Below, one piece after another: positions 53,019-55,461 of a stretch of DNA of 64,000 nucleotides. Numbering within the stretch: position 1 is the first letter of the stretch; the number at the start of each line of letters is the position of its first letter. The translations under genes and the position numbers were made by a program. Under the pieces are notes generated by a model that saw only the letters and a program-made list of their open reading frames with translations, did not search any database and was not told the origin of the DNA. This DNA comes from Acanthamoeba sp. SK_2022b (taxonomy: Eukaryota > Discosea > Longamoebia > Acanthamoebidae). The DNA lies in NCBI GenBank assembly GCA_027943245.1, contig JANDJZ010000277.1:1-64000 (forward strand). The letters are read 5' to 3'.

Positions 53019-53519
53019 ATGAAGTTCACTGCCCTCTTTGCTATCTTCGCTGCTCTCTTCCTGGTGTCCCAGCAGGTCTCTGGCCTCGAGTTTGCCCTTC
53101 AGATGACTGGCTCCTTCGACCCCAAGACATTCGTGATCTCCCTCAAGGGCAACTCGCAGATTGTGTCGACCGCGATCTCAGCCTCGACCGACGCTGTTAG
53201 CTTCTCTGTTTCCTCCACACTTGGCACATACGCCACCCTCGAGCTCACGCCCGGGGGCCAGAGCGGCCTCGGCGGCGGTAGCATGTCCTTCGGCACTCAC
53301 CTGGCTCGCAACCACACTCTCGACTTCCTGGCTGCCAACGCCAATCAGATACTCCAGACCCCTACCGTGAATGTTTTCGAGTTCTACAACGTCTACACCG
53401 TCCTAGGGGGCACTGGCGTCTTCGACAAGGCCACCGGGGTTATCACCTCAGCCTCCACCCTCCACGCGATGACTGGCGAGGTTACTGGCTTCGTGTACGG
53501 CAAAGTATTCACCAACTAG
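53019..53519 (+). CDS. Secreted protein, allene-oxide-cyclase/dirigent-like barrel (copy A)
   Basis: Single exon, 166 residues; start ATG at 53019. Residues 1-21 (KFTALFAIFAALFLVSQQVSG) form a cleavable signal peptide. The mature chain is made of short strands (LEFALQMTGS, FSVSSTLGTYATLEL, MSFGTHLARNHTLDF) and ends with LGGTGVFDKATGVITSAS..GEVTGFVYGKVF, reminiscent of the GGTGxF..A.G turn in allene oxide cyclase and dirigent beta-barrels; that fold link is a guess. A TATA-like ATAAAAAGGCG sits ~45 bases upstream. A divergent paralog lies at 60453-60950 on the other strand. Function unknown; secretion is likely. Confidence 0.8.
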   Translation: MKFTALFAIFAALFLVSQQVSGLEFALQMTGSFDPKTFVISLKGNSQIVSTAISASTDAVSFSVSSTLGTYATLELTPGGQSGLGGGSMSFGTHLARNHTLDFLAANANQILQTPTVNVFEFYNVYTVLGGTGVFDKATGVITSASTLHAMTGEVTGFVYGKVFTN

Positions 53520-53636: not shown

Positions 53637-55349
53637 TTAATTCGTTATTGGCTTCTCTAGTAGCGACCATCTTCTAGTGCGCACCGCACCATACCCTTTC
53701 CTCTGGTCTCCCATTTCTTGAAGATCTTGATGTGTGACAAGCGGCTGGTCGTACCCTGCCACATGATGTCCGGCTCGTGCTCCGAGTGGTTCCGATGCAA
53801 CCTTCTCCTGCGCGTATCTGTAAGTGGCAATTAACCGCAGTTGCAGCTGTCCTGTGGTTGCTCGTACGTCATCTAGGCAGGGAACCACTTGTTCCAGTGG
53901 TGTGTCCTCCGATTCTGCCTGTTTGTTGGCATGACAGTAGCTTGCGCACTTGCTGTAAAGCAGCATGATGAGCTCGTGCACCGCGCAGGCAAACGCTGCT
54001 GCGCCTCCGAGAGTACCTTGAGGGCAAATATCATGAGCTTTGTTTCCGTTCATTCGAGGAGTTGGAGAGAGAGAAAGAGAGATGCGGACAACGTGCCCAC
54101 AAGGGTAAGCCAGTCGTAACTCACAACCTGAGAGTTGCTTGTTATGGCAAAAGACGAGTAGGAGAAGGTGATGATTATCGTGTTCCTCGGGATGTCTGCA
54201 CGTATGCCGCATTCAGCAGTGAGCCGGTTCCAGAGGAAGGTGAAGAGCAGCACGTATACCGCCAGAATTGGAGGAAGAAGACGTGGAGGCGTAGAAGGAG
54301 ACCGCGGAAGATCCGCCTAGGTAATTGTCCTGCTCTTGAGATAATACGGCCCAGTAGGAGTTGTCTGTCACGACTAAGAAGTTGGGCGAGTCACTGGCTG
54401 GTGACTGTTACGACCCACACACTAGTCAGTCTAACACCACTGTTGCATAAGCACGTTGGCGTGAGAGCAACCTCAGGTTCGACAGGAGCCCGTGACGAGT
54501 AAAGCATCACCGCAAACGGGCGTCTCTGGTGCTGGGGTGCACCGAAGCGAGTCTGTGTCGAGTAGTGCATGATGCGACGAGATAACGGAGTGAGCAGATG
54601 GGGGGAGTTCAAGTTGGGTAAAGGTTGCCATGCCTCCATGAAACTGTGGTCCTCTACCACTGCATTGAGAATGTTGGATGGATCGCCATTGAAAAGAGCG
54701 CATTTGTGGTCTTTGAACCTGCCGTCAATTGGCTTCACGATCACAAACAGTAAGTGAAGGAAGCGGTAGCTGACCGACGACGAAGGTAGTACTGTGAAGC
54801 GCTCAGCGGAACAGTTGTGCGTTGTAGCCTGGGTGGAGTTGTACTGACGGCATTGCAAGTCGTCCACGCTATTTGAACAAGGATGAGCATAACTGATCAG
54901 CGTGCCTTGGTTGGCATAGTCGTACAAGGTTCCATTGTCGGTTTTTGCCATGGGACACACCAGCACCGCGGGGAAGGCCAACGACCGTTCAAATTGCACG
55001 CCCGCCGACCTGAGCCAAGGGATGGTGGGTGATGTGAGCAACTCGATCGGCCAGGAAGCCACATACAGCAAGAGGTAGGATGGAAGACCAGTCGGGATTT
55101 GTGTAGGAGATGTAGCAGAGGTAAACTTGGTATCCGGCGTAGGCCATGACACACAATAACGCCACCAACCACAGCACCTGGCCGCAACAGGTAGCCAAGC
55201 GCGTGCTGAGCGCTGGTCCAACAGCAAGCGGCAGGGGGCGTTGAAGGCGAGGGCACCTTGCTGAACCAACTGGCACTGCGCTGGTCGGCCGTGGTCTGGG
55301 CCACGTACATGATGTCCCCCACCGTGTATCCCACCGTCCACATAAACAT
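53637..55349 (-). CDS. DEG/ENaC-like ion channel subunit
   Basis: Six exons join in phase to 1371 nt (456 residues): 55349-55257, 55177-55089, 55009-54438, 54397-54260, 54195-54097 and 54016-53637. A short N-terminus with QTTADQRSASWFSK leads into helix 1 (VLWLVALLCVMAYAGYQVYL), then YISYTNPD and SLAFPAVLVCP, matching the post-TM1 FPAVTIC segment of DEG/ENaC channels. A ~250-residue Cys-containing ectodomain ends NTIIITFSYSSFAITSNSQ, SYDWLTLVGTLGGAAAF, and helix 2 continues ACAVHELIMLLY. This ectodomain strand, the LLSDxGG-like turn and helix 2 follow the DEG/ENaC pattern. The GxS selectivity tripeptide is replaced by ACAV. The fifth intron uses a GC donor (GG/GCACGT at 54096). A cytosolic tail of ~100 residues follows. 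Confidence 0.7.
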
Positions 55350-55461
55350 CGTTTACGAGACAATTTCGACCGTGACTTCAGATCTGGCTCTTCTGCAACG
55401 GCTGTATGGCGACCTTGCAAGCTACAGTCGCTGTCACTGTCTTCTGAGCCGGTGTCGGAAA
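55350..55461. promoter_or_regulatory. Compact bidirectional promoter, DEG/ENaC-like (-) and P450 (+)
   Basis: Only 112 bases separate the two start codons. This fixes both promoters in a very small region or within neighbouring coding sequence. No TATA box is obvious. Confidence 0.55.

Follow-up and report, generated by a model that had tools for sequence, protein, structure and literature searches.

A gene on the minus strand of a contig from Acanthamoeba sp. SK_2022b likely encodes a divergent, minimal homologue of the DEG/ENaC channels (Pfam family ASC), as one of three paralogous subunits of what is probably a trimeric cation channel. The parts of this reading, which is built on sequence comparison, differ in strength: homology to DEG/ENaC is very probable, ion conduction is somewhat favoured, and poor selectivity for Na+ is a tentative proposal. 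The gene lies in a 64,000-nucleotide stretch of contig JANDJZ010000277.1 (the window), where it runs from an ATG at 55349 to a stop codon at 53637 and comprises nine exons encoding 381 amino acids. Sequence evidence agrees with an Acanthamoeba host: an actophorin exon of this genome aligns with Acanthamoeba actophorin (1ahq) over 84 residues, four of which differ, and the named proteins of the channel family come from A. castellanii Neff.

Several relatives helped to define the gene. The same genome carries two paralogues, C810 (eight exons, a 329-residue model) and C132 (limited to N-terminal exons by the end of its contig). An earlier, sequence-only reading of this DNA had proposed looking for orthologues, and A. 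castellanii Neff supplied three counterparts, ACA1_241370, ACA1_329850 and ACA1_061000, all of them named uncharacterized proteins. The window gene pairs with ACA1_241370 (P0001; 69% identity over 203 aligned residues), C810 with P0004 (72% over 281), which equals ACA1_061000 except in one stretch, and C132 with P0002 (88% over 84), itself 99% identical to ACA1_329850 (P0003). P0002 appears to derive from spliced RNA, because its 386-residue frame lies on a 1,304-base contig and its genomic counterpart C132 has introns. The Neff proteins show the same motifs as the window gene where these are present, but two of the three Neff models are without TM1 exons. A near-identical C-terminal half occurs in tandem in P0001 (about 110–243, offset 135) and in P0003 (about 108–199, offset 92), with one copy in P0002; this may be an assembly or annotation artefact or a tandem exon duplication. 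That two Acanthamoeba genomes both retain three subunits would be in keeping with a heteromer. ACA1_061000 carries a precomputed PF00858 label, so the similarity is already in databases, under an uncharacterized name.

Protein searches aimed at more distant relatives yielded A. castellanii Neff proteins and two close relatives, and nothing beyond these. In these searches, 2 of 7,998, 5 of 7,992 and 1 of 14 scored candidates matched; shared five-residue words were required, so the outcome is no evidence of absence from other organisms. Contigs of viruses and of prokaryotes, each set searched with two N-terminal peptide patterns, gave no match. Four other candidates were rejected. C678 (E 0.06), which we take to be a proton-translocating transhydrogenase, was set aside as a chance match after its sequence was read, and C1106 (E 0.0032), C135 and C491 (E above 1) aligned with no more of P0002 than its acidic tail (residues 286–377).

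Placing the exon chain by these homologues gave the following features:

55350–55461, no strand assigned: 112-bp upstream stretch common to the channel gene and a divergent plus-strand gene

55257–55349, minus strand: exon 1, predicted cytosolic N terminus MFMWTVGYTVGDIMYVAQTTADQRSASWFSK, which matches P0002, P0004 and C810

55089–55177, minus strand: exon 2, TM1 (VLWLVALLCVMAYAGYQVYL) up to TNPDW, from hydropathy, the gene model and the profile comparison

54926–55009, minus strand: exon 3, post-TM1 strand SLAFPAVLVCP with Cys79, from the gene model, the profile comparison and the joint alignment

54793–54868, minus strand: exon 4, ectodomain part containing Cys95 and Cys108, its ends in agreement with P0001 and P0002

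54634–54732, minus strand: exon 5, ectodomain part GRFKDHKCALFN containing Cys125, then a GC–AG intron at 54553–54633, from the gene model and the alignment

54472–54552, minus strand: exon 6, ectodomain strand PFAVMLYS, with intron 6 set by agreement with P0002 and by the C810 phase

54260–54404, minus strand: exon 7, ectodomain SPASDSPNFLVVTDNSYWAVLSQEQDNY onward, from the gene model

54097–54195, minus strand: exon 8, with ITFSYSSF as the last ectodomain strand and SYDWLTLVG leading into TM2, then a GC–AG intron at 54017–54096, from the gene model and the C810 introns

53637–54016, minus strand: exon 9, TM2 GTLGGAAAFACAVHELIMLLYSK and a predicted cytosolic tail, the frame of the tail being uncertain by the GC3 values given below

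The eight introns measure 57 to 81 bases, six of them GT–AG and two (introns 5 and 8) GC–AG. At the columns and phases of both GC–AG introns, C810 has GT–AG introns. C810 has seven introns in all, six of which match the window gene in column and phase; the seventh shares the phase of the revised window intron 6 and lies within about three residues of it, in a gapped stretch that was judged by eye. P0002 supports exon 1 and the exon that carries TM1, as well as the junctions within the ectodomain, and P0001 supports the junctions at NGSFVTDL and TLVGTLGG. GC3 is 0.693 over codons 1–283 and 0.465 in the tail (overall GC of the introns, 0.538), so the C-terminal tail after about residue 283 may be wrong.

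Two other versions of the model were discarded. The f2 read-through N terminus was dropped because P0002 shows the MWTVGYTVGD start, and a 383-residue version with a different intron 6 was replaced by the 381-residue model, preferred for its new intron 6, which has the C810 phase and gives the P0002 length. The sequence-only reading had given six exons and 456 residues between 53637 and 55349. These outer coordinates stood, but the exon chain gave way to the nine exons and 381 residues indicated by the homologues. Judging by its length, the 456-residue chain, for which exon ends were not given, retained introns 3, 4 and 5 (57, 60 and 81 bases), which are open in frame and without counterpart in P0001 and P0002.

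Neighbouring genes lie close on both sides. A divergent plus-strand frame beginning at ATG 55462 probably leads into and belongs to a cytochrome P450 gene, as a downstream piece has a P450 Pfam match. Just 3′ of the channel gene, positions 53019–53519 of the plus strand encode a 166-residue protein with a start that, by eye, resembles a signal peptide; it had no Pfam match up to E 0.01.

Comparison with Pfam, which the sequence-only reading had suggested as a check, placed the 381-residue protein above the curated cut-off of the ASC family (PF00858; E 2.7e-11, 43.6 bits; cut-off 23.6). None of ten controls, made from the first 310 residues of the 383-residue model by reversal (one) or local shuffling (nine), matched ASC. 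The cut-off was passed by five of seven family proteins, namely the 383-residue version (44.3 bits), C810 (28.3), P0002 (41.2), P0004 (31.3) and P0005 (34.1); P0001 and P0003, which are without TM1 exons, fell below it (19.3 and 19.2 bits). These two Neff models matched ASC at profile positions 396–439 and 395–442, with E values of 0.00064 and 0.00067, and in P0001 the unrelated DUF3586 (E 0.00041) ranks over ASC. The first 100 residues of the window protein alone gave an ASC match with E 2.5e-8. From Cys79 on, ASC was the sole Pfam match (E 0.0051), at positions 391–438 of 455, the C-terminal end of the profile. No Pfam match was obtained with two short pieces of TM2, taken from P0002 and P0004.

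A six-frame PF00858 search of the 44.9-Mb genome (1,129 contigs) returned nothing; the genome was read exon by exon in this search, and the exons are short. Among its control genomes, that of the bacterium Thermotoga maritima exceeded the cut-off, with what may be either a true relative or a spurious match. The P2X profile (PF00864) did not match the 381-residue protein among Pfam results up to E 1. Elsewhere in the same genome, an exon at C203:2610–2786 matched the P2X receptor above the cut-off, with 31.6 bits.

In a sequence search of the PDB, the best match was ASIC5, with E 0.00056 for the family profile and 0.0041 for the window protein alone; P0002 alone reached ASIC5 with E 0.057, with chance matches close behind. 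Hydropathy of the window protein peaks at about residues 25–55 and 252–279 (383-residue numbering), and P0002 has a further, weaker peak at 146–166.

Two profiles were also compared, one built from four amoeba sequences and the other from chicken ASIC1 together with the alpha, gamma and delta subunits of human ENaC. In the whole-profile hhalign comparison, the match covered TM1 and the FPAVxxC strand (E 0.00057), at a modest probability of 29.5. As a separate segment, this N-terminal part scored 32.4 (E 3.3e-5), the best of 200 column shuffles scoring 20.4 and none being as good. The ectodomain scored 29.5 over 101 columns (E 0.0014), compared with 26.0 for the best of 300 shuffles (again none as good) and 17.0 for a reversed template, at a probability of 17.3 that is also modest. 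The TM2 segment alone scored 11.5; because 10 of 60 shuffles did as well, it adds nothing by profile comparison. Across TM1 and the first strand, amoeba–animal pairs are 21–39% identical and the three animal sequences 28–37% identical among themselves.

In the joint alignment, amoeba Cys79, Cys108 and Cys125 fall on ASIC1 C94, C180 and C195. The program left Cys95 unaligned to C173, and the likeness of CRQYN to CRFNQ of ENaC alpha suggests that the two are equivalent. These four are the only ectodomain cysteines common to the four amoeba sequences. The likeness to ASIC1 and ASIC5 covers TM1, the FPAVxxC strand, CSxE and C..FN in the ectodomain, and GG at TM2. That to ENaC alpha and gamma covers the TM1 strand (21–31% identity) and, with alpha, gamma and delta compared, a common pattern of palm and ball cysteines. 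Much of what the sequence-only reading had described was borne out: hydropathy agrees with TM1 and TM2, SLAFPAVLVCP follows TM1, cysteines lie in the ectodomain, and SYDWLTLVGTLGGAAAF forms the turn into TM2. Its assignment to DEG/ENaC is supported by the Pfam match, the shuffles, the profile–profile comparison with ASIC1 and ENaC, and the conserved cysteine positions.

The protein differs from animal channels in what is missing or replaced. Between two invariant positions, the FP proline and the TM2 glycine, there are 185 residues, compared with 346 in ASIC1. The ectodomain is about half as long, and the joint alignment has gaps where ASIC1 has its finger helices and thumb, given our assumed assignment of ASIC1 stretches to these domains. 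ASIC1 has ten cysteines from C291 to C366 (counted by eye in the same alignment), and for each of them an amoeba counterpart is missing. A finger, a cysteine-rich thumb, an HG motif and a GAS belt, all present in ASIC1, are missing from the four aligned amoeba proteins; the absence of HG and G/SxS also sets these proteins apart from ENaC. No histidine occurs in the first 31 residues of any of the four amoeba sequences. The sequence-only reading had already noted a replaced selectivity tripeptide, and the joint alignment agrees: TM2 reads GGAAAFACAVHEL, and no G/SxS occurs within the 14 residues from GG on in any of the four. The absence of HG, the missing finger and thumb stretches and the existing PF00858 label on an A. 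castellanii paralogue had escaped that reading.

In place of these motifs, an invariant His-Glu follows GG in TM2 of all four sequences. Aligned without a gap, the histidine falls at the place of the filter serine; with a deletion of 5–6 residues, the glutamate falls on E451 of chicken ASIC1. Also conserved is the N-terminal segment MWTVGYTVGD...AQTTADQ, in which 17 of 21 residues (3–23) are invariant in the window gene, P0002, P0004 and C810; by analogy with the re-entrant loop of ASIC1, it may line the lower pore.

According to the available parts of two papers, HG and GAS are highly conserved across the DEG/ENaC family (PMC7308080; PMC8536179). The latter describes CeDEGT-1d as lacking HG and, in that context, also mentions a threonine replacing the filter serine. 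Also reduced, centipede PDPNaC1 is short (421 residues) and conducts without HG and the knuckle, and its GAS mutants retain selectivity; it differs from the amoeba proteins in retaining the finger, thumb, palm, ball and GAS motif (PMC12714832, in its accessible text). The window protein scores above the profile cut-off, but the pore motifs and two ectodomain domains are absent, and we therefore do not file it as a canonical DEG/ENaC channel.

As a channel subunit, the protein would have two membrane passes and cytosolic N and C termini. It would keep a beta-rich palm and ball core, closed by equivalents of C94–C195 and C173–C180, which we take to be the disulfide pairings of ASIC1, and the helical finger and thumb would be gone from the fold. 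In a homo- or heterotrimer, the TM2 helices would line a voltage-independent cation pore. This pore would probably be less Na+-selective than that of ENaC, because it has neither the G/SxS belt nor its buttress, HG, and an invariant His-Glu stands in for them; PDPNaC1 serves as a warning that selectivity can sit elsewhere (PMC12714832, in the part available). The domains of ASICs, finger and thumb included, have been described, and these two border the acidic pocket (PMC10148893, from the text at hand), which makes ASIC-style proton gating unlikely for the amoeba protein. The channel might be constitutively active, or its gate might respond to stretch, to a ligand or lipid, or to pH through the TM2 histidine.

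Several other explanations were weighed against that of a channel subunit. The loss of both HG and G/SxS and the different spelling of TM2 would suit a DEG/ENaC homologue without channel function, such as a membrane receptor, a scaffold or a trafficking protein. We regard this as unlikely, as the segment before TM1 and the His-Glu of TM2 are among the most conserved parts, as expected of a pore lining, and PDPNaC1 conducts despite its own lack of HG and knuckle (PMC12714832, available portion). A recent transfer from an animal or another eukaryote, or contamination, would fit the patchy distribution reported among protists in the accessible parts of PMC10507113 and PMC9822975. It is nonetheless very unlikely, given the eight introns, three paralogues that share intron positions, the counterparts in a second Acanthamoeba genome, and a distance from ASIC and from ENaC that equals the one between those two.

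Still less probable is membership of some other two-TM family that resembles DEG/ENaC only through a hydrophobic TM1 and motifs that agree by chance. Such a family would suit the absence of the pore motifs and the lack of significance of TM2 alone in the profile comparison, but the Pfam score is well above the cut-off with no match in the ten controls, the ectodomain match extends beyond TM1, and three cysteines align. P2X, the other trimeric two-TM family considered, does not match the protein, and a separate exon of the genome is a candidate for it. Least probable of all is that the window gene is a decaying copy. The two GC–AG introns and the uncertain tail could be read as signs of a pseudogene; against this, the frame is open through eight introns, GC3 is raised in the core, and the gene is 69% identical to its Neff counterpart over 203 aligned residues. 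A divergent DEG/ENaC homologue that forms a channel therefore remains the preferred explanation.

The literature mostly places this family in animals. In the available text of PMC10507113 and PMC9822975, DEG/ENaC channels are animal proteins, with heterokonts and filasterean relatives as exceptions and one alveolate candidate. The former survey included Amoebozoa among the groups searched, and its candidates come from holozoans and from a single species each of alveolate and stramenopile; its authors call the search not exhaustive. Its members or candidates from Tunicaraptor, Cafeteria and Symbiodinium likewise lie outside animals. For choanoflagellates the sources disagree in the parts available, PMC10770216 giving them DEG/ENaC homologues whereas PMC10507113 found none there. 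No amoebozoan member is reported in the accessible portions of the two surveys, and none from Acanthamoeba appears in the titles and abstract openings among the matches listed, in a search that mostly left subscription journals aside. Gene loss and lateral transfer are discussed as causes of the patchiness (PMC10507113, same portion).

If the assignment is true, the DEG/ENaC family extends to another branch of single-celled life. With three amoebozoan paralogues in hand, an older origin with losses and a separate transfer become directly testable alternatives. A more far-reaching and tentative picture is that the family predates animals and occurs in Amoebozoa too, where heteromeric channels without finger and thumb would use a His-Glu pore without G/SxS and the HG buttress, and that a palm core and two helices may be the minimal working channel. 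A form lacking the finger, thumb, HG and G/SxS raises the question of which parts of ASIC and ENaC a channel needs.
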